From Thiotrichaceae bacterium (GTDB taxonomy: Bacteria > Pseudomonadota > Gammaproteobacteria > Thiotrichales > Thiotrichaceae): a stretch of DNA of 12,092 nucleotides. How positions within the stretch are numbered: position 1 is the first letter of the stretch; each line of letters begins with the position of its first letter. Position numbers and translations under genes: made by a program. Location: positions 1 through 12,092 of the forward strand of contig JALVDQ010000165.1 of the NCBI GenBank assembly GCA_027008885.1, given 5' to 3'. The notes below the pieces were generated by a model. The model was not told the origin of the DNA and did no database searches. It worked only from the letters and a program-made list of their open reading frames with translations. Shown here one piece after another: positions 1 to 9,236 of the stretch.

Positions 1-422
1 ACGCTATCACTCTGACTCAAACAGTAAATTCTGATGTTGTGTTTGACCTGACGCCAGATGCACCCACAGATGCGGGTGATTATTTCGCTAATTCATATAC
101 TCGTGATGCGACCTTACTCAGTATTGAAGGCATAGCCAGTGATCAAAAGTGGATGGTTTACGCCAAAATCAGTAATTATGTGCATAGCGGTACGGAAAAG
201 ATCCGAATCAAGGTCAAGAGGACGGGTGATGGAACCGGGGTGACCGCACCTACAGGCGGAGCAGTGTTTAAAAAACTTACTGTGGGTAACTATAGATATT
301 TATTCAGGGGAAAAGGTAACCGTTACAATATTCCAATCACAACCAAAATCGGAGGAATTGGTGTTAGAGATGGTTATGGTGCATTCAATACCACGATTGA
401 ATATAAAGTAGAAACCTATTGA
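1..422 (+). CDS. Fimbria-like exported subunit, C-terminal part (5' end outside window)
   Basis: The reading frame is open from the first bases (first full codon at position 3) to a TGA at 420-422, so this is the C-terminal 139 residues of a longer protein. A GTG at 39 lies inside the frame and is not taken as the start. The visible part is rich in alternating beta-strand patterns and ends in GAFNTTIEYKVETY. It shares a TDAGDYF motif, a K-x-x-x-Y-x-K strand and a final T-I-x-Y strand with the exported protein at 4450-4944 (TDAGDNF; NINVTITYTL). The two look like paralogous subunits of one fibre. A last strand with alternating hydrophobic residues is typical of pilins assembled by donor-strand exchange. 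As the first visible gene ahead of chaperone and usher genes, it is a plausible major subunit. The role is inferred from context and the paralogy; I recognise no named family. Confidence 0.6.
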   Translation, partial: AITLTQTVNSDVVFDLTPDAPTDAGDYFANSYTRDATLLSIEGIASDQKWMVYAKISNYVHSGTEKIRIKVKRTGDGTGVTAPTGGAVFKKLTVGNYRYLFRGKGNRYNIPITTKIGGIGVRDGYGAFNTTIEYKVETY

Positions 423-485
423 TATACTCCTGTCTTGGGGATGGAAAAATTTCTGAGCGAACCAATATCTGATTCAGGAGTATAT
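422..485 (+). repeat. Inverted repeat between subunit and chaperone genes
   Basis: An 11-bp perfect inverted repeat (ATATACTCCTG at 422-432 and CAGGAGTATAT at 475-485) encloses a 42-base loop. It begins inside the stop codon of the upstream subunit gene and ends 38 bases before the chaperone ATG. There is no T-run behind it, so it is not a standard intrinsic terminator. In fimbrial operons, hairpins placed after the major subunit often stabilise or process the mRNA so that the subunit is made in excess. That role is inferred here. Confidence 0.55.
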
Positions 486-523
486 AAACAGGGCTAAAGC
501 ATAAAGCAAAAGGGGAAAGGATT

Positions 524-1348
524 ATGAATAATAAATTACTACAACTATTAATTTTTCTTGTATTGACAGTTTTCAGCACAGAATCTCTGGCAGCTATCTT
601 GATGCAGGGAGGTTATTCGCATGAGTTTACAGTTACGCCTGGTGGTGTCTATAAAAAATCAATTAAATTGAAAAATATGGGGCGTACACCCCAGGAAATA
701 AAGATTTACCTGGAAGACTATATGTTTAATGCAGGTGGGCGTTCAAGATTTTCTGCTGCAAGATTGCGTAAAAACCCACGCAGTAATAGTCACTGGATCA
801 GATTTAGTCCAAATCGTATTGTTTTGGCACCAGGGGCAGAAAGGGTCGTAAATTATACAATGCGCGTCCCAAGAGGCAGATTGACTGGAACCTACTGGAG
901 TGCCCTGATTATTGAACCTGTTGTGGCATCCTCTCTGGAGTCGTCCAGAAAGCGTTATAACGATAAAAAAGTGCATATGAATATCCAGCAGGTAGCTCGT
1001 CATGCCATTCAAATTGTGGCGCAAGTGGGTGATACCGGAAAAGCAAACATACAGTTCAAGCATCCTGTCATGAAGAAACAGGCAGGCAAACGTACCTTTA
1101 GTCTGGATGCCTATAATGTCGGTACCCGCTGGATAAAGCCTGATGTCTGGCTGGATGTTTATAACCAGCAGGGGGCCTTTGTTGGCAAGTTTCAGGGTGA
1201 TGGATCGCGTATTTATCCGCGGACTTCGGTAACATTGCCCGTTGATATATCGCGTTTGCGTTCCGGGAAGTACAAGGGTCTTTTTGTTGTCGATGGCGGT
1301 AGCAGCACAGATATTTTGGCTACCGATGTTAATCTGACAATCAGATAA
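524..1348 (+). CDS. Periplasmic fimbrial-chaperone-like protein with two Ig-like domains
   Basis: The 274-residue product has a clear signal peptide (hydrophobic residues 5-17, likely cleavage after SLA or LAA at 23-24). The first Ig-like domain (about 25-140) contains FSPNRIVLAPGAE (94-106) followed by a GTYWSALIIEP strand (122-132). This layout matches the PapD-type chaperone pattern P-x-x-x-x-L-x-P-G then R-x-x-x-F-W-x-x-x-x-x-P, and also resembles the DUF916/WxL-interacting domains of Gram-positives. A second beta domain (about 175-274) contains NVGTRWIKPDVWLDVY and a GKYKGLFVVDGG strand. At 274 residues it is longer than FimC/PapD chaperones (about 205-230 when mature). I cannot find an obvious equivalent of the PapD Arg8. 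ATG at 524 is preceded by a purine-rich AAAGGGGAAAGGA site. It lies between a subunit gene and an usher-like gene, so a subunit chaperone is the best reading. Confidence 0.68.
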   Translation: MNNKLLQLLIFLVLTVFSTESLAAILMQGGYSHEFTVTPGGVYKKSIKLKNMGRTPQEIKIYLEDYMFNAGGRSRFSAARLRKNPRSNSHWIRFSPNRIVLAPGAERVVNYTMRVPRGRLTGTYWSALIIEPVVASSLESSRKRYNDKKVHMNIQQVARHAIQIVAQVGDTGKANIQFKHPVMKKQAGKRTFSLDAYNVGTRWIKPDVWLDVYNQQGAFVGKFQGDGSRIYPRTSVTLPVDISRLRSGKYKGLFVVDGGSSTDILATDVNLTIR

Positions 1349-1431
1349 GCAGTTAGGAGAAAAGGAATAAAAGGCATAAAAAATAATAACTTAATGCAGA
1401 TTTTCGTTTCAGGTTGAGTGTTTTTCAGGGC

Positions 1432-1459
1432 TAACTACCCGGAATAATCCGGGTAGTTA
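1432..1459 (+). repeat. Perfect 11-bp hairpin just upstream of the usher-like gene
   Basis: TAACTACCCGG (1432-1442) and CCGGGTAGTTA (1449-1459) form a perfect stem with a 6-base AATAAT loop. Only a short CTTTTC follows, so it is at best a weak terminator. The AGGAA ribosome site of the next gene (1466-1470) starts 6 bases after the stem and its ATG is at 1477. The hairpin could attenuate read-through from chaperone to usher or affect ribosome loading on the usher message. The function is inferred; the structure is directly visible. Confidence 0.7.
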
Positions 1460-1476
1460 CTTTTCAGGAAGCTATC

Positions 1477-4281
1477 ATGCTATTTCTATATAGGGGAAAA
1501 AAGGCTGTTTTTGCTACTTATGCGGTGTTCTTGTTAGTACTTTTATTTCCGCTATATGCTTTTTCAGCTTCATTTGTTGATATTATTGTTAAACAGCGCG
1601 TGATTGTTGCACAAAGTCGGGGGATTGTGACTTTGCCGTTCAGTGTTGTTAATCGCAGTAATCGAACTCTTCGGCTTAGAGAGAGTCTTGAGTTGCCAGA
1701 GGGCTGGAGAATTTTAACAGGGGAAGATTCGTTTACCCTGGCAGCGGGTGAGAGAAGTCTGCGTTTGCTTCATGTTTTGGCTTCATCCGATGTGCCTGCC
1801 GGAAAATATACCATTCCGTACCAGATTGTTTCCAGGGATAAATTTTCAATTCATGCCGAGAAAAAAATCAGTGTTATTATAAAATCGGCATCAAAATTAT
1901 CCGTTGAGGTAATTGAAAAGCCTGATCTGGTACTGGCAGGCGAGAAATATACAGTAAAGGTACAGCTTGCCAATCAGGGCAATGTGCCTTTGTTGCTAGG
2001 AGTTGATGTCAGGGATAGATTATCTTATCTGACTTCTTTTGCACCTCATCATCTGCAATTAAAAGCTTCTCAAAAAGCAATTATTACAATTCATGCGAAA
2101 ATTCCTGAAACATTAAGCAAAAGCACTTACCACAATTTGAAGCTGCTCCTGAAGGGGCGCTCAATTGCAGAAAGCAAATCAATAAAAACACAAATTATTG
2201 CTTTCAAGCCGGATGGCACAGGCTTGTATCAGACAATACCGACCAAAATCACATCGACTTATACAAACAATGGCGACCATGGTGTTTTGCAGACCGAGTT
2301 AAGTGCCGCCGGAAATCTGGATGAAAAGGGCAAACATCACCTTGATTTGCTTTATCGTGATACGAAAACGAATGATCTGTCTGTGCTGGGTTCTGATGCA
2401 GAAAAACGGCTGTCTTACAATAATGATTCTTTTGCGATTCATTTGGGTGATCGCTCTTTTTCTCTTGCCGGTATTGGAGATGAAGGCTTGTATGGAAAAG
2501 GTGTGGAAGTTGACTATTCTCCTCCTGGCAAGAAATGGAATATTCGAGCCTTTACAGCAGAACAGAAGCGTCAGGATAATACTGATAATGTGAATAAAGA
2601 TAGCGCAAGGAAATTTAACTTCAGCGGTTTTGAAATCGGATACAAGTTTTCCAATGAACTGGAACTGGCGATCAACACACTCTCTCAAAGAAATAATGAC
2701 AAGGAACAGAAAAAAGAAAGCATCAGCGGGATTGATTTGCATTGGGATAAATTTTCCAGTGCTGAAGTTAATTTGTCTCTGGCAAAAGATAAAGATGGAA
2801 AAGCTTTCAGGCTACAACAATATGGAAGCCTGGGCGATTTTAACTATGACCTTGAGGTACAAAAAGCAGATGCAGATTTTGACGGTCTTATCAAAGACAT
2901 AAAAAGTGAAGCTGTTACAGGAATATACTCATTTAATGACAATAAAAATTATCTCCGTACAAATCTGTATCACGCAAAACGTAATGTTGACGAGGATACG
3001 AGCAGAAATATTACAGAAGATAAAAACTTTAGTTTGGGAATAGGGCATTATTTTAATAATCTCCATCAGGACAGCCTGTATACAGAAATATTTGTTCGTA
3101 AATCCAGAGATCTGCGGCAATTGTCTGATTACAATCAAACTGAACGGGGTATTCGCCTCGACTATCAAAAAAATATCAATCAGCAATTAAGGTTGAATAC
3201 AATTGTTGAGCATGTGCTGAATAATGATCACATAAGGAATAAAAAATCAGCCAAAAATCGGGGCAGCCTGACTCTGGCGTATACTCCGAATGATAAATAC
3301 CATTTGAGCTTGAATATTGATAGCAGCAGTATTCATCGTGACAACAGTGTCTATGATAATGATAGCAATTATGATGATAATAGCCTGAATTATGGATTAA
3401 ATGCGGCGATTCGCTTTAACTCCAGACAACTTCTTTCAGGCTACTGGAGACACTCAAAAAATAACAATACCTTGCAACTTAATTATAATCATACCTTTAA
3501 TAACGGCATAACGCTGGGTGGCTCTGTCTCTACCGATACTCTAAATAATTCAAAAACAGACAAAGATTCCCTTGAGTATCAGCTTAGATTGAGTGTGCCA
3601 TTTGATATGCCTTTGTATAAATACAAAAATATCGCAGCACTCAAGGGCAAGGTTTACGACAAGGCTCAGCGTCAGCCAGTGAGCAACGCGATAGTCGCTA
3701 TTGCAGGACAATATGCTGTTACAGACAAGGAGGGTAATTATCTGTTTAAAGCCATTCGTGAGGGAAAATATGATTTGAGCACAAATCTGAGTAAAACCCG
3801 GCTGAATAACTACATGATAGAGAATAATGAACAGCAAAAAATAACTTTACATGCCAACAGAACATTGACACATAATATAAAACTGGTGGCAGGTACGGGT
3901 ATTAGCGGACAGGTTTTAGCCTATACCTTGTCAAGCGCCTCTATTTTGTCAGGCAAAGCCAATCATACGGCAATGAAACCTTCTGGCGGTGTAGAAGGTT
4001 TGTTAGTCACGTTAGTATCGACAGATGACAGTGAAATAGTCCATAAAGCACTTACCAGTGAGGGTGGTTATTTCAGTTTTAATGGCATTAAAGCAGGAAA
4101 ATGGCTGATACAGGTCACAGATCCGAGAAAAGTGCTTAAGGATGCCCGTTTGGAAAAACCACAAAGAGTAATAGAACTCAAGGTTGGTAAAGACACAGAT
4201 ATTGTTTTCAGGGCAATTCCGTTAATGAAGCAAATCAGGAAAATAGGACCTAGTAGTGGATTTAATGTAATTGGAGAATAA
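1477..4281 (+). CDS. Usher-like outer-membrane beta-barrel protein with Ig-like ends
   Basis: The 934-residue product has a signal peptide (hydrophobic 13-30, cleavage near 30-32). Two beta-sandwich regions follow (about 33-140 and 140-245), with NRSNRTLRL, AGKYTIPYQI and LANQGNVPLLLG resembling NEW3/COG1470-type Ig repeats. Residues about 250-715 look like a transmembrane barrel: many short alternating strands ending in aromatics, with Asn/Asp-rich turns. Within it, LGDRSFSL (323-330) followed by YGKGVEVDY (339-347) recalls the usher motif G-D-x-x-x ... F-R-G-x-x-L-x-x-D. Two C-terminal carboxypeptidase-regulatory-like domains follow (about 720-800, with GKVYDKAQRQPVSNAIV and TDKEGNYLF; about 805-920, with TSEGGYFSFNGI). 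Classical ushers also end in small beta domains. The likely role is export and assembly of the neighbouring subunits at the outer membrane. An outer-membrane protein unrelated to ushers is possible, but the gene order argues against it. Ribosome site AGGAA at 1466-1470. Confidence 0.62.
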   Translation: MLFLYRGKKAVFATYAVFLLVLLFPLYAFSASFVDIIVKQRVIVAQSRGIVTLPFSVVNRSNRTLRLRESLELPEGWRILTGEDSFTLAAGERSLRLLHVLASSDVPAGKYTIPYQIVSRDKFSIHAEKKISVIIKSASKLSVEVIEKPDLVLAGEKYTVKVQLANQGNVPLLLGVDVRDRLSYLTSFAPHHLQLKASQKAIITIHAKIPETLSKSTYHNLKLLLKGRSIAESKSIKTQIIAFKPDGTGLYQTIPTKITSTYTNNGDHGVLQTELSAAGNLDEKGKHHLDLLYRDTKTNDLSVLGSDAEKRLSYNNDSFAIHLGDRSFSLAGIGDEGLYGKGVEVDYSPPGKKWNIRAFTAEQKRQDNTDNVNKDSARKFNFSGFEIGYKFSNELELAINTLSQRNNDKEQKKESISGIDLHWDKFSSAEVNLSLAKDKDGKAFRLQQYGSLGDFNYDLEVQKADADFDGLIKDIKSEAVTGIYSFNDNKNYLRTNLYHAKRNVDEDTSRNITEDKNFSLGIGHYFNNLHQDSLYTEIFVRKSRDLRQLSDYNQTERGIRLDYQKNINQQLRLNTIVEHVLNNDHIRNKKSAKNRGSLTLAYTPNDKYHLSLNIDSSSIHRDNSVYDNDSNYDDNSLNYGLNAAIRFNSRQLLSGYWRHSKNNNTLQLNYNHTFNNGITLGGSVSTDTLNNSKTDKDSLEYQLRLSVPFDMPLYKYKNIAALKGKVYDKAQRQPVSNAIVAIAGQYAVTDKEGNYLFKAIREGKYDLSTNLSKTRLNNYMIENNEQQKITLHANRTLTHNIKLVAGTGISGQVLAYTLSSASILSGKANHTAMKPSGGVEGLLVTLVSTDDSEIVHKALTSEGGYFSFNGIKAGKWLIQVTDPRKVLKDARLEKPQRVIELKVGKDTDIVFRAIPLMKQIRKIGPSSGFNVIGE

Positions 4282-4388
4282 TAAGAACCTGTCTGAGAAT
4301 AGCCAAAAATACGATTTTCAACAATTTAACAAAAATTAAGTTCTTTATTTTCAATAACTTAAAAAATTGGTTCTTGGAAAAATTGTTA

Positions 4389-4418
4389 ATTTCTTAGTTC
4401 TCGATTTCTTAGTTCTCG
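4389..4418 (+). repeat. Perfect 15-bp tandem duplication upstream of second subunit gene
   Basis: The unit ATTTCTTAGTTCTCG occurs at 4389-4403 and again, without a gap, at 4404-4418. It lies in the AT-rich 168-base gap before the second subunit gene and ends 31 bases before its ATG. A 7-bp inverted repeat (TTAAGTT 4336-4342, AACTTAA 4356-4362) lies further upstream in the same gap. The duplication could be a paired regulator site or a product of strand slippage. No promoter hexamers are convincing. Confidence 0.6.
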
Positions 4419-4449
4419 GCTAGGAACAGTCCCAAAGGAATATAAACTT

Positions 4450-4944
4450 ATGACTAAATTAAAAACACTTCAGTTGATATGTATAATATCAGGCGCATTT
4501 TTTTTCGCTACGGAGGCTTTTGCCGACAGCGACACTGCGACACAACAAGTGCGCATTATTATCCCCAAAATTGCAATTATTGATGTTGATAATACCTATA
4601 CACCTTTACAGATAACTTTTGATCCGGTTACAGATGCTGGCGATAATTTTTCCATGGTAACCGCGACAGGCTATTACGATGTTACATCAAATATCAGGAA
4701 GCTCAAACTCTATGGAAAAACAAATATAGACCTGCAATCTTTGTATAATTTAAAGCTTGAAGTAAATGAAGCCGGAAATTTTTATCGAACCTTAACTACG
4801 ACTTCCGAGAAAGTTTCCAACCAAAACCGGCAGGCTCAAAAAAACCAGCCACTCTACTACAGGGCAAGCCCGGTTTCTCCCAATAGAGCAATTCCCTATG
4901 GGAATATCAATGTAACCATTACATATACACTGGTAGAACCATAG
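4450..4944 (+). CDS. Second fimbria-like exported subunit
   Basis: The 164-residue product has a strong signal peptide: basic start, hydrophobic 8-19, cleavage after AFA at 23-25, leaving about 139 mature residues. The mature part opens with alternating strands (QQVRIIIPKIAIIDVD), has ITFDPVTDAGDNF in the first third, and ends with GNINVTITYTLVEP. The TDAGD-x-F motif, the order of strands (K-L-K-L-Y-G-K, Y-N-L-K-L-E-V, F-Y-R-T-L) and the final T-I-x-Y strand match the partial subunit at 1-422. It has no cysteine in the mature part, unlike type 1 or P pilins, which have a conserved disulphide. It could be a minor, anchor or alternative major subunit; it is too short for a two-domain tip adhesin. 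AAAGGA at 4434-4439 serves the ATG at 4450. The gene ends 37 bases from the oppositely oriented ATPase gene. Confidence 0.62.
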   Translation: MTKLKTLQLICIISGAFFFATEAFADSDTATQQVRIIIPKIAIIDVDNTYTPLQITFDPVTDAGDNFSMVTATGYYDVTSNIRKLKLYGKTNIDLQSLYNLKLEVNEAGNFYRTLTTTSEKVSNQNRQAQKNQPLYYRASPVSPNRAIPYGNINVTITYTLVEP

Positions 4945-4981: not shown

Positions 4982-7309
4982 CTAAGAAGCTTTCCAGACA
5001 ACAGCAATATCTTCTATCTGAATGTCTGTTTTTCTGGGTTTTATGGAAAATTCTTCTATATCGACGTTATCAATATCATATTTATCCGCAAGCTCATCTA
5101 TCTTTTCTTCGAGTTCTTCCTCAAGCTCTTCGATATCATCTTCAATTTTTTCAATTCGATTTTTTTGCCGGCTGACATCTCCCCGCTCTTTTAGGATACG
5201 GGTGCTGGCTACGCCAATGGATGCTCTGGATTTTCCAAACAAGGCACCCAGTACAGTCAAACCAGCCTTGAGAAAAGAATTACTGGTATCTGCTTTTTCC
5301 TTGTCCAGTCTTTCCATAGCGCGTTCCAGGCGATCCCTGAGGACTTTTTCCTTTTTTGCGAAGCGTTCCTGTAAAACTTCAATTGCCGCTTCCTTCTTTT
5401 CATTGAGTAGATCATTGAGGCGTACTTTAAAATCACTCAATGATTCATAAGGTTCTGATTCAAGCCTGGGTGATTTGCTGCGGAACAGTTTCAGTCTTTG
5501 TTCATGGTAAAGCCAGTCTTTCAGGCTGGCTTTTGCTTTGCGAAGGTTTTTGTCCGAGCGGATAAATTCCTGCACTTCGGCATATTTTGCATTTGCAGGA
5601 GGATTAAGAGGATATTGACTAAAGCAATTATGCGACTCTTCCTGTATTGCGTTGTCCCAGTCGAGATTATTATCCGTTGGATCAATATCCAGATTAAGAC
5701 AAAGCGTTTCTTCTTCATCAATGCCACGCGACTGATTGAAAAAGTGTACCTTGGCTTCGGCCATTATACTGGGTCGAAATTTCCCCGATTTGTTCAAGTC
5801 TGGTTTAAAGCGCTGCGGGATAGAGCTATCCAGTGTTGAGTAATTATCAAAGCCGTCATCATCAATTTGTGTTTCTTCAATATCTTCTTCCTCAGGCTCT
5901 AATAGTGCTTTCTGTTCCTGCATCAGGGCAGAAATTTCATCCCGCTTTAAAGGTCCCTTGAGATAACTCATTACCCAGCGTGTCCCAAACAGGCGTATAT
6001 CGTCAAGGTGTGCGCTTTTCAGGAAGAAGGTACGTTTTTTCAGGTTTGACAGCAGGTTTTTTATTTCCTCCTTGTCATAACTGGAATCAACTTTGCCGCC
6101 CAGTCCATCGATAACACGGGCTATATCCTGGGTGGTTTGCAAACGCCCGATAAACCATGTTCCCATATTGGACAGCCCTTTATAATCAAGGTCAACCGGA
6201 TTTTGGGTACTTAATACAATACCTATGCCATAGGCACGAGCCTGTTTTAGCAGGAGTAACATCGGTTCTTTACTGGGTGGATTACTGATAGGAGGAAAGA
6301 AACCAAAGATTTCATCCATATAGAGTAAGGTTTTAAGTGCAGATGTACCACTCTGGCGACGCATCCAGGCAATGAATTTATTCAGCAGAAGTGTAACAAA
6401 GAACATTCTTTCTTCATCATTAAGATGAGAAATTGAAAAAATTGCAACTTTTGCCTTGCCATTCTCATCATAAAGAAGTTTTTGAATATCCAGTGATTCA
6501 CCCTGGAGCCAGGCACTAAATGTTGGTGATGCGATGATTGAATTAAAGCGGGTAGCAAATTTAAAACGCTCATTTTGAGGGTAAAAGGTTTCCAGTGGTA
6601 AAACACCGATTTTCTTAAATGGCGGACTAATGATTCGTGCAATTAATTCTTCCAGACTCAGGTCTTTGCCGTCATACCACGCAGAGGCAATAAGCTGGCT
6701 TAATAAAATAGTTTCCTTGGACTCGACAGAATCAGCCTCAACACCTATTAACGAGAGCAAGCTGCTAACGGTAGTATGCAGATAGGATGAAAAACTGTCA
6801 CTATCCTCCATAATCTGGGGAGGGGGAACTTCGAGTGAACCAAGTACATTTACGCTAACACCAGCTCTGCTGCCCGGCGTGTAAATTGTTTTCTTAACCG
6901 CATGAAATTTGGCGACACGTTCTCTTGTCTGATGAAAAGATTCAATGCCATTTTCCCACATGCTGGCAATTTTCTCTGCATAGCTACTGACGTCTTTTTC
7001 TTTGGATTTGGCTTCGTCAGCTACCCAGGGTTCAAATGATCTGGGCGAAAACTCCGGGTCTGTCAGGCATAAATTTCCCATATCGCCTTTCGGATCAATA
7101 ATAATAGAAGGAATATTGTCTATGGCAGCCTCTTCAATGATGCCAACACCAAGCCCCGTTTTGCCACTGCCTGTCATACCAATAATAGTGGCATGTGTCG
7201 TAAAATTTTTATTTTTAAGTAGAGTAAGTACCTCTGTCATTTCCAGTGTTTTTTTATCTATATCCTTGCCTAGATAAAAAAGCCCAAGTTTTTCGTAAAT
7301 CTCTACCAT
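4982..7309 (-). CDS. HerA/DUF87-type P-loop ATPase with coiled-coil C-terminus
   Basis: The 775-residue product starts with a short beta region (YEKLGLFYLGKDID) like the N-terminal barrel of HerA proteins. It has a Walker A motif GMTGSGKT (44-51), then IIIDPKGD (69-76), a Walker B strand LLYMDEIFGFF with D332-E333, and the HerA-like STQNPVDLDYKGLSN segment (from 367) followed by WFIGRLQTTQD with a candidate arginine finger. These are hallmarks of FtsK/HerA hexameric motors. An acidic linker follows (EPEEEDIEETQIDDD). The last 200 residues are highly charged coiled coil, interrupted by a hydrophobic GLTVLGALFGKS stretch. Archaeal HerA works with NurA in DNA-end resection; bacterial versions occur alone or with defence effectors. 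No partner gene is visible here, so the cellular role is unknown. The ATG is preceded by an AGGT at a suitable distance. The gene stands alone and converges on the fibre cluster. Confidence 0.85.
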   Translation of the reverse strand: MVEIYEKLGLFYLGKDIDKKTLEMTEVLTLLKNKNFTTHATIIGMTGSGKTGLGVGIIEEAAIDNIPSIIIDPKGDMGNLCLTDPEFSPRSFEPWVADEAKSKEKDVSSYAEKIASMWENGIESFHQTRERVAKFHAVKKTIYTPGSRAGVSVNVLGSLEVPPPQIMEDSDSFSSYLHTTVSSLLSLIGVEADSVESKETILLSQLIASAWYDGKDLSLEELIARIISPPFKKIGVLPLETFYPQNERFKFATRFNSIIASPTFSAWLQGESLDIQKLLYDENGKAKVAIFSISHLNDEERMFFVTLLLNKFIAWMRRQSGTSALKTLLYMDEIFGFFPPISNPPSKEPMLLLLKQARAYGIGIVLSTQNPVDLDYKGLSNMGTWFIGRLQTTQDIARVIDGLGGKVDSSYDKEEIKNLLSNLKKRTFFLKSAHLDDIRLFGTRWVMSYLKGPLKRDEISALMQEQKALLEPEEEDIEETQIDDDGFDNYSTLDSSIPQRFKPDLNKSGKFRPSIMAEAKVHFFNQSRGIDEEETLCLNLDIDPTDNNLDWDNAIQEESHNCFSQYPLNPPANAKYAEVQEFIRSDKNLRKAKASLKDWLYHEQRLKLFRSKSPRLESEPYESLSDFKVRLNDLLNEKKEAAIEVLQERFAKKEKVLRDRLERAMERLDKEKADTSNSFLKAGLTVLGALFGKSRASIGVASTRILKERGDVSRQKNRIEKIEDDIEELEEELEEKIDELADKYDIDNVDIEEFSIKPRKTDIQIEDIAVVWKAS

Positions 7310-7844: not shown

Positions 7845-9236
7845 CTAGCGTATCATCCCTAATGCCCTAAATGTATCCTTACTGAGCTTGCCAACAGGTA
7901 ATCCACGAGAACTTTGGAATGCTTTTAAAGCGGCCGCTGTTCCGGCATTCATCTTACCATCCAATGCTCCAGGATCAAACCCTTTTGCTTTTAATGCTTT
8001 CTGGATTCCATAAACAATGCTTCTGCGTGTCTCAGCCTTGCTTTGTTGAGACGCCACCTGTTTTTTTAAATGCACAGTGTTGCGATAGCTGACCTTTCTT
8101 CGCTTTGGTCTGGCTGCTTTTCTATGGCTGGCAACACGCTTTCCAGAGCCTGCATTCATTACTCTTAGATACTCCTGATAGCTGATACCAGAGTGATTGT
8201 ATTGCTTTCTGTAGTTATTACTACGAACCACCGGACGACGTACAATAGTAGCTTTTTGATACTGTTTTGGAGCCACTCTGTGAATATGGTTTGAAGCAAC
8301 CCTGTGGTATTTTCTGGAGGTCTTTTTATGGCTACCATACTTTTTACGGTAATGAGCGGGTGCATTTGTTTTGCAAATAACAGGTTTCCAGACATATTTG
8401 GCGCTGCCAGTTTTGACCCGGTAGTTTTGTGTTTTATAGCGTGCCGGGGTTTGCACTGTTTTGTACAGGGCAGGGGAAATTCTTTGTTTCTGCTTAACTG
8501 TCTTGTACACCGCAGGAACCAGAGTACGAAGTGTTTTCGCAGGACGCACAAGTACACGCTTTTTAACCGTCTTGTATACCGCAGGAATTTTTACCCTGCA
8601 CATGATTTCACCCGTCATATTGTCAATACGAGTGATAGCACCATGGCCTTTTCTCCAGGTGTTATATGCAGGCTTGATCATGATGCGCTTCGTAACAGTT
8701 TTATACTGGGCTGGAATGACACGAGTTTTGTAGCTTTGCTTGCGAACCAGCACTTTCTTGTTGATCCAGCGGTATTGTGGCGCACGCACAAGAACACGTT
8801 TTGAGGTCGCTTTTTGTATGAGTATACGACGTGACTGGGTTTTATAGGTTGCAGGCAACTTCACCCTGGCAAAACATTGACCTGGTTGCGCTGCAGGCAA
8901 GCCATTACTGCGAACAGAGTGAGTCGGTCTTGGTTTTTTATGATAAACGCGACTCGCCTTTGGTGGTGTCGGTTTATAGACAGGTTTGGCAACAACAGTT
9001 TTTGAAGATTCAACCTGTTGTTGTGAAGCGGCACTAATCTGGGAGCCACCTGCACTTTGTGACTGGGAAGTAACCTGTGATCCACCTGCACTTTGTGACT
9101 GGGAAGCAACCTGTGATCCGCCTGACTGCTGTGACCCAGCACTAATCTGCGAACCACCAGTTACTTGCTGCTGGCTACAGCCAGATAATACTGCTGCAAG
9201 TATGGCACTTGAAACCGAGAGTTGAGTCATTTTCAT
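7845..9236 (-). CDS. Basic repeat-rich lipoprotein with C-terminal peptidoglycan-binding domain
   Basis: The 463-residue product has a lipoprotein signal peptide with lipobox LSGC (Cys20). Residues 27-74 are four 12-residue repeats beginning GGSQ (at 27, 39, 51, 63), a flexible Ser/Gln linker. Residues 121-290 contain about eight units built on P-A-x-Y-K-T-V followed by K-R-V-L-V, in two halves that open with CFARVKLPATYKT (121) and CRVKIPAVYKT (213). A Lys/Arg/His-rich stretch follows to about 400. The end (406-463, SIVYGIQKALKAKGFDPGALDG to LSKDTFRALGMIR) is a typical PG_binding_1 domain. The protein is probably anchored in the outer membrane by its lipid and to the cell wall by its C-terminus; its strong positive charge suggests polyanion contact. 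The function of the YKT repeats is unknown to me. AGGAAG precedes the ATG at 9236. A second in-frame Met at codon 3 is less well spaced. Confidence 0.85.
   Translation of the reverse strand: MKMTQLSVSSAILAAVLSGCSQQQVTGGSQISAGSQQSGGSQVASQSQSAGGSQVTSQSQSAGGSQISAASQQQVESSKTVVAKPVYKPTPPKASRVYHKKPRPTHSVRSNGLPAAQPGQCFARVKLPATYKTQSRRILIQKATSKRVLVRAPQYRWINKKVLVRKQSYKTRVIPAQYKTVTKRIMIKPAYNTWRKGHGAITRIDNMTGEIMCRVKIPAVYKTVKKRVLVRPAKTLRTLVPAVYKTVKQKQRISPALYKTVQTPARYKTQNYRVKTGSAKYVWKPVICKTNAPAHYRKKYGSHKKTSRKYHRVASNHIHRVAPKQYQKATIVRRPVVRSNNYRKQYNHSGISYQEYLRVMNAGSGKRVASHRKAARPKRRKVSYRNTVHLKKQVASQQSKAETRRSIVYGIQKALKAKGFDPGALDGKMNAGTAAALKAFQSSRGLPVGKLSKDTFRALGMIR
9046..9117 (-). repeat. Two 36-bp tandem copies within the lipoprotein gene
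   Basis: Two nearly identical 36-bp units (9046-9081 and 9082-9117) encode consecutive GGSQV(A/T)SQSQSA repeats of the lipoprotein linker. More diverged 12-residue copies flank them on both sides. The near-identity of the central pair suggests recent duplication by slippage or recombination, so copy number may vary between strains without breaking the frame. Confidence 0.75.

Follow-up and report, generated by a model that had tools for sequence, protein, structure and literature searches.

Does a cluster of four genes for exported proteins in a Thiotrichaceae bacterium encode a chaperone-usher pilus system, and how is it related to the known ones? The four genes lie on contig C165, whose entire 12,092 bases were analyzed here and are referred to as the window; the genome it belongs to (G000) comprises 2.97 Mb in 494 contigs. 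Four open reading frames (ORFs), all on the + strand, fill positions 1–4944 with intergenic gaps of 101, 128 and 168 bases, as had been described from the letters of the DNA alone (in the following: the sequence-only reading). We consider it probable that they represent a divergent chaperone-usher pilus system. We observe that the gene order is conserved, that the barrel protein is homologous to ushers, that the chaperone has a PapD-type fold, that chaperone and subunits show strand patterns, and that the chaperone is also homologous to WxL-interacting proteins (WxLIPs). Chaperone-usher assembly fits because of the first four of these and because one subunit type has no N-terminal extension. 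The features of the cluster, with immunoglobulin abbreviated as Ig, are:

3–422, + strand: B-type subunit, C-terminal 139 residues; 5' end cut by the contig end
524–1348, + strand: periplasmic chaperone, 274 residues, two Ig-like domains, WxLIP/PapD fold
923–1000, + strand: F1–G1 region of the chaperone, residues 134–159 (model and alignment)
1477–4281, + strand: usher-like outer-membrane protein, 934 residues
1576–2199, + strand: its two N-terminal Ig-like (NEW3-like) domains, residues 34–241 (secondary structure of the model)
2227–3621, + strand: its beta-barrel, residues 251–715 (model and profile comparison)
3631–4221, + strand: its two C-terminal beta-sandwich domains (Pfam: CarboxypepD_reg 722–803, SdrD_B 837–885)
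4450–4944, + strand: D-type subunit, 164 residues, no Cys in the mature part
4525–4566, + strand: candidate donor strand of the D subunit (N-terminal extension), residues 26–39, with alternating V34/I36/I38 followed by P39

Conservation of the gene order

The barrel protein was searched for in 95 relatives, the own genome included, and matched in 11 of them. Apart from the own genome, seven genomes (G018, G033, G049, G059, G032, G027, G042) are matched along the greater part of the protein or as far as a contig end; in three more (G002, G019, G035) the match is confined to the C-terminal domains, and these were not counted as relatives. With the loci of G426, G428 and G164 added to those from this search, the chaperone gene is located directly 5' of the barrel gene and on the same strand in nine genomes (G000, G018, G049, G059, G032, G042, G426, G428, G164), and subunit, chaperone and usher-like genes are contiguous in nine genomes including the own one. 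In G033 contig ends (C42/C46) separate the chaperone gene from the barrel gene, and the G027 contig starts within the barrel gene. A B gene lies directly 5' of the chaperone gene in nine genomes (G000, G018, G033, G042, G049, G059, G032, G426, G428) and a D gene 3' of the barrel gene in nine as well (G000, G018 (partial), G033, G027, G042, G049, G059, G426, G428); at the locus of G032 we found no match to D. An extra subunit of 132 residues, termed E, is present in G426, G428, G049 and G059. The G032 chaperone (L025:1269–2109) consists of two overlapping ORFs in different frames, due to a frameshift or a sequencing error. G164 carries a minimal system of an A-type subunit, chaperone and barrel only (L080:5487–9691), flanked by a large gene resembling those of repetitive secreted proteins and by a regulator-like gene.

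The chaperone-usher-like layout noticed in the sequence-only reading is therefore one that is kept across genomes. The homologues P0002–P0017 of the 934-residue protein show 46–73% identity (14 aligned); those in five other genomes (G018, G049, G059, G032, G042) show 23–46% and have the same neighbors. Since these homologues have diverged and yet keep their neighbors, the cluster goes beyond chance. The 934-residue protein was not placed in any non-usher family, and the neighbors are conserved together. Three distant full-length relatives (P0020, P0021, P0022) share 19–22% identity with it; by eye, P0022 has a LysM-like C-terminal extension, and P0020 ends in a C-terminal hydrophobic segment.

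In a class-wide search with the barrel alignment (369 genomes, two candidates scored per genome) 55 genomes were matched, and besides G000 both ends of the protein were matched only in G164. Most of the other matches are confined to the C-terminal CarboxypepD-type region, and five (G424, G084, G282, G195, G182) cover a short Ig or barrel stretch only; neither group was counted as relatives. A contig search with the single 934-residue sequence as query found no relatives. The chaperone profile matched, at E≤1e-5, 22 of 63 members of the family and 30 of 369 of the class, the own genome being included in both. Nine of the 22 family matches exceed 140 bits (the longer piece of G032 counted), and the other 13 score at most 90.4 bits. 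The two lower-scoring matches that were inspected (L157 in G015, L161 in G040) sit in a sister cluster type in other genomes of the family (L157:4490–9952, L161:4653–10216). This type comprises a protein of about 730 residues whose end is SdrD_B-like, as well as three subunit-like proteins, a chaperone and one more subunit-like protein. The sister chaperones (271–272 residues) are related to that of the window (E 1.8e-24 and 2.3e-26); in L157 all four small proteins lack a Pfam match at E≤0.01. This looks like a second divergent chaperone-usher-like system.

Named sources are Thiothrix lacustris and T. litoralis, metagenome-assembled genomes of Leucothrix mucor and of a Thiotrichaceae bacterium, Thiolinea and Cocleimonas; weaker relatives are named Bacteroidia bacterium, Candidatus Marithrix and Thermodesulfobacteriota. 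The chaperone homologues under the names T. litoralis and T. lacustris show 36–37% identity. The named relatives of the cluster proteins are annotated as hypothetical or DUF3324 proteins. Searched with Pfam Usher, the own genome gave nothing and 15 of 57 relatives gave a match.

Kinship of the barrel protein and the chaperone

At E≤10, none of the four proteins was matched by an usher, PapD or pilin model from Pfam or NCBIfam, alpha-type usher and pilin models of Pfam included. WxLIP_PGBD (DUF916) and fn3_5 matched the chaperone, both under their cut-offs, and NPCBM_assoc/NEW3 matched the N-terminal Ig region of the barrel protein at E 8e-4, again under the cut-off. PapD_N did not match the window chaperone at E≤10, and for the 81 members of the chaperone family it is outside the 25 most-matched of 79 families.

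An usher is a 24-stranded pore with a plug, an usher N-terminal domain and two C-terminal domains. The AlphaFold2 model of the 934-residue protein, built on 21 homologues (mean predicted local distance difference test score (pLDDT) 81.9, predicted template modelling score (pTM) 0.56), comprises an Ig-like pair in residues 34–241, in agreement with the sequence-only reading, 26 strands in residues 251–715, and two beta-sandwiches (719–818 and 833–915) at the positions of the usher C-terminal domains CTD1 and CTD2. By prediction, the barrel and the two C-terminal sandwiches of the usher architecture are thus found. As the longest gap between predicted barrel strands is 14 residues, there would be no space for a plug domain, which in FimD and PapC measures some 75–90 residues.

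The top seven Foldseek matches of the model are FimD chains (E 1.2e-14 to 1.4e-12) with low TM-scores of 0.27–0.38, followed by ciliary Ig proteins, another FimD, PapC and others. VIA-align 2 ranks the barrel of the Mtr complex (6r2q_B; score 18.6, 406 residues aligned, root mean square deviation (rmsd) 4.6), PapC (17.0, 423 aligned, rmsd 9.5), FimD (16.8, 435 aligned, rmsd 9.1) and LptD (16.7, 395 aligned, rmsd 5.7) alike, and barrel shape alone is therefore undecisive; among its best 50 rows, three reach the C-terminal domains (model residues 907–914), all of them ushers. One could hence suppose a transporter or porin-like protein, such as LptD or the Mtr complex barrel, standing next to unrelated exported proteins, since those two and TonB-dependent receptors are matched about as well as PapC. 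We regard this as very improbable in view of the conserved gene order and of the profile comparison, which sets most ushers apart from four such barrels.

For this comparison, profiles without signal peptides were aligned with hhalign to a profile of seven E. coli ushers, with six column shuffles each. The full protein scored 70.5 (probability 93.2; shuffle maximum 19.7), the barrel part alone 61.9 (shuffle maximum 21.2) and the C-terminal domains 26.2 (shuffle maximum 18.3); the N-terminal Ig pair did not match the usher profile, its score of 16.0 being equal to the shuffle maximum of 16.0. Against single sequences the full profile scored 26.6–41.3 for the ushers and 15.9–20.1 for LptD, FhuA, BamA and PgaA. 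For the barrel part the values were 16.1–36.0 and 15.3–19.9, respectively, and here EcpC (16.1) is not set apart from the other barrels and ElfC (22.2) barely is. For kinship to ushers we judge sequence profiles to decide better than barrel shape.

The chaperone model (mean pLDDT 92.1) has the two-domain PapD fold. The likeness to DUF916/WxL-interacting proteins noted in the sequence-only reading was borne out: besides the WxLIP_PGBD match, the protein matches EfmWxLIP1 at E 2e-7 across both domains, the homology covering DUF916 and DUF3324, and its nearest solved relative is a WxLIP bound to a long WxL protein (PDB 9i25). According to passages of PMC10599100, WxLIPs are typified by an N-terminal NQIDKxxxYFDLK motif and a C-terminal membrane helix, the latter present in virtually all of them. 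The 274-residue chaperone has neither and ends in a beta strand; judged by its sequence, it is a WxLIP homologue and not a WxLIP proper.

This homology raises the possibility that the cluster encodes a Gram-negative surface complex of the WxL type, in which the WxLIP-like protein would be a permanent partner of the subunits, not a transient chaperone, and the barrel would only carry the complex to the surface, without polymerization. An annotated WxL gene lies directly 5' of the WxLIP gene in three of seven annotated Gram-positive loci (the other four are not so annotated), which parallels the order of subunit before chaperone seen here. We think this quite unlikely: the conserved donor-like extension of A and D would be purposeless without strand exchange, the chaperone does not have the membrane helix, the barrel protein is usher-related, and the subunits are not demonstrably WxL domains in profile comparison.

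The chaperone seemed to match the E. coli chaperone-usher chaperones directly by sequence (initial probability 80.6), but this match was rejected because the score nearly vanished once signal peptides were removed (hhalign 21.4 against a null maximum of 19.8, and 18.3 against 21.6). A stepwise link to PapD-type chaperones exists only via the intermediates L081 and L163. Together with the profile homology of the barrel protein to E. coli ushers it makes a divergent homologous system likelier than a convergent one, and the sequence-only suggestion of a family that had converged on the same layout was not sustained.

The F1–G1 region of the chaperone (residues 134–159) has no secondary structure in the model and is located between two strands. 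In the 81-sequence alignment it shows a donor-strand pattern of putative function, that is, alternating hydrophobic residues and a basic anchor: a hydrophobic residue stands at positions 152 and 154 in 75 of 75 sequences and at position 150 in 51% of 75, but rarely at positions 151, 153 and 155 (0.07, 0.00 and 0.03); the window protein has V150/M152/I154. Position 159 is Arg in 80 of 80. In FimC, YehC, YadV and SfmC the Lys of a KL[FY]/KLFL stretch follows five positions after the last alternating hydrophobic residue; ElfD has Thr in its place, and EcpB and YhcA do not have the stretch (all by eye). CfaA donates residues 114/116/118/120, followed by R125 (in the part of PMC4133393 concerned); Arg159, five residues past the last of the donor positions, resembles this R125. 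Non-classical chaperones anchor the carboxylate with Arg89 in strand F1 (a passage of PMC4654587); the F1 strand here (123–133) has no counterpart. In WxLIPs a hairpin is predicted to turn into a strand that completes the WxL sandwich (PMC10599100, within section 2.4).

The Arg at position +5 and the presence of CfaA among the best chaperone-usher fold matches would be expected of an alpha fimbria of a known type (CS1/CfaA or Ecp-like) that has merely drifted, the placement that the sequence-only reading had considered. The fold scores of other chaperone classes are, however, within 1 Z unit, and no alpha-type family model was matched. The chaperone has no clear profile match to a set including EcpB, nor do the subunits to one including EcpA. 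Among the seven single ushers, EcpC ranks fifth against the full profile (29.2) and last against the barrel part (16.1). We therefore hold this alternative to be unlikely and the alpha placement not to be established.

Subunits and a proposed model of assembly

The A-type subunit is encoded on another contig of the same genome (C384, 7,953 bases), at about 6515–7108, 3' of a gene which we take to be aroA. C384:7202–7672 encodes a full-length 156-residue paralogue of the B-type protein at 3–422, and the end of the contig (7784–7953) is the start of another B copy, 95% identical to window positions 1–170. The longest database contigs for A (P0109), chaperone (P0023) and barrel (P0001) each measure 20,150 bases, close to the 20,045 bases of C384 and C165 combined (7,953 + 12,092). 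This supports, without proving it, that the two contigs adjoin and that the cluster starts on C384. The tandem of near-identical B genes at the boundary (C384:7202–7953 / window 1–422) probably broke the assembly.

One profile covers A and D and picks up E as well; the B profile aligns to it with an hhalign score of 54.4 (maximum of 20 shuffles 16.1). The only Cys of the D subunit, at residue 11, is inside the signal peptide, so that the mature part has none, as previously noticed. In 77 A/D sequences (12 from the loci and 65 from the database, some being the same protein) the mature N-terminus shows Q48 in 69 and Pro55 in 70, and positions 50, 52 and 54 are hydrophobic, with Ala counted, in 77, 76 and 77 sequences, respectively. 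This extension is a candidate donor strand. The assumed mature N-terminus lies 18–22 residues before a shared AG block in the nine complete B-type proteins and 34–60 residues before it in seven A and eight D proteins (counted by eye, assuming AxA-like cleavage and leaving out A of G164 and G032 and all E). B thus has no donor-strand pattern. Single-domain tip subunits without an extension are known from AfaD/SafD.

In profile comparison the subunits gave no convincing match, whether to a known family, to WxL domains or to E. coli pilins, and a sequence search of the PDB gave nothing useful. Against seven small proteins of WxL clusters, a shallow set in which two are not annotated as WxL, the A/D profile scored 14.7 (null maximum 14.0) and the B profile 17.3 (null maximum 16.3), barely above the nulls; by eye, a stretch resembling W-x-L is seen in both subunit types, which end C-terminally in [WY]-x-[LI].

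For the proposed chaperone-usher system we infer the following course of binding, exchange and polymerization. A subunit, an incomplete Ig-like domain, would enter the periplasm by Sec. The chaperone may lend it a G1-like strand (residues 150–154), and Arg159 may grip the C-terminal carboxylate of the subunit in the interdomain cleft. The pair would dock where a classical usher has its N-terminal domain, namely on the Ig-like pair at the N-terminus of the barrel protein, and then be passed to the C-terminal domains of the latter. The N-terminal extension of an incoming A or D would displace the chaperone strand of the preceding subunit, and the fibre would exit through the barrel. Without an extension B could only start a chain, hence its presumed position at the tip; A would form the shaft, and D (and E in genus g2) would be later subunits.

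Several defining features of chaperone-usher systems fail here and weigh against this assignment. The usher N-terminal domain is, by prediction, replaced by two Ig-like domains, and the barrel, with 26 predicted strands and no plug-sized insert, would have no plug. One proline is invariant across the superfamily of chaperone-usher chaperones (according to a passage of PMC4654587); at its putative position 96, an equivalence drawn by eye, Pro occurs in only 46 of 81 sequences. Membership in any named chaperone-usher clade is not established either.

The gene 3' of the four (4982–7309) is on the opposite strand and convergent with the cluster. It encodes a 775-residue HerA/FtsK-like ATPase (DUF87, E 2.4e-7) with a long, charged C-terminal part. 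Positions 7845–9236, also on the − strand, encode a 463-residue exported basic protein, rich in Lys and His, with GGSQ repeats and a C-terminal PG_binding_1 domain, weakly similar to HxsA (46 bits against a cut-off of 121.65). The genes after it are presumably those of HflD, MnmA and a short-chain dehydrogenase.

Relation to known systems

A helper protein that is closer to a Gram-positive surface protein than to the usual pilus helpers hints at a shared origin of the two systems. We consider it an evenly balanced possibility that the family is a surviving link between the WxLIPs of Gram-positive and the chaperone-usher chaperones of Gram-negative bacteria, which would then descend from one two-domain, strand-donating ancestor, as profile chains and folds suggest. 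If so, strand donation to surface subunits would predate the usher as well as the outer-membrane export route, and a WxLIP-type chaperone would here serve a recognizable usher pore without the classical docking domain and plug. Whether the Gram-positive WxL system and the Gram-negative pili inherited strand complementation from one ancestor thereby becomes testable. The cluster adds a chaperone-usher branch in Thiothrix-like bacteria, whose four proteins are not labelled as usher, PapD or pilin in Pfam or NCBIfam. It also provides a natural example of an usher that does without the usual N-terminal domain and, by prediction, has no plug, which is relevant to the questions of how subunits are recruited by ushers and how the pore is kept shut. 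In the open-access literature searched, none of the matches listed relevantly joins WxL/DUF916 with chaperone-usher or PapD, as far as their excerpts go, and none was found on Thiothrix with chaperone-usher. An unannotated stretch in a record labelled as a Klebsiella pneumoniae plasmid (CP069367.1:101758–102462) is a 74% match to an E. faecium WxLIP; the record is possibly a contaminated or mixed assembly.

Among the closest known systems are the WxLIP (DUF916+DUF3324)/WxL clusters of Firmicutes, e.g. that of EfmWxLIP1 (PDB 9i25, 9i1y). In contrast to these, the system described here is Gram-negative and has a gene for an outer-membrane barrel, its chaperone lacks the C-terminal membrane helix and the NQIDK motif, and its subunits are not recognizable as WxL domains. 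From FimC, YadV, CfaA and CsuC the chaperone differs in having no clear direct profile match to them, in its long F1–G1 loop and in that the superfamily proline is not invariant. A DUF4402-type chaperone-usher cluster (L081 in G068) has the same order of subunit, chaperone and barrel. The window family profile finds the chaperone of L081 at E 2.9e-15, the window protein alone finds it at E 1.0e-8, and the E. coli chaperone profile does so at E 6.3e-8. The L081 cluster differs in that its subunit is DUF4402, and its usher-like protein shows no match to the Ig pair or the barrel and a weak one in the C-terminal domains (33.2, scored without a shuffle null). Where FimD and PapC have the usher N-terminal domain, the 934-residue protein has a pair of Ig-like domains; it also differs in its 26 predicted strands and in having no plug-sized insert. 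Like them, it consists of a large barrel followed by two beta-sandwich domains, and the profile match runs across the last third of the barrel into the C-terminal domains.

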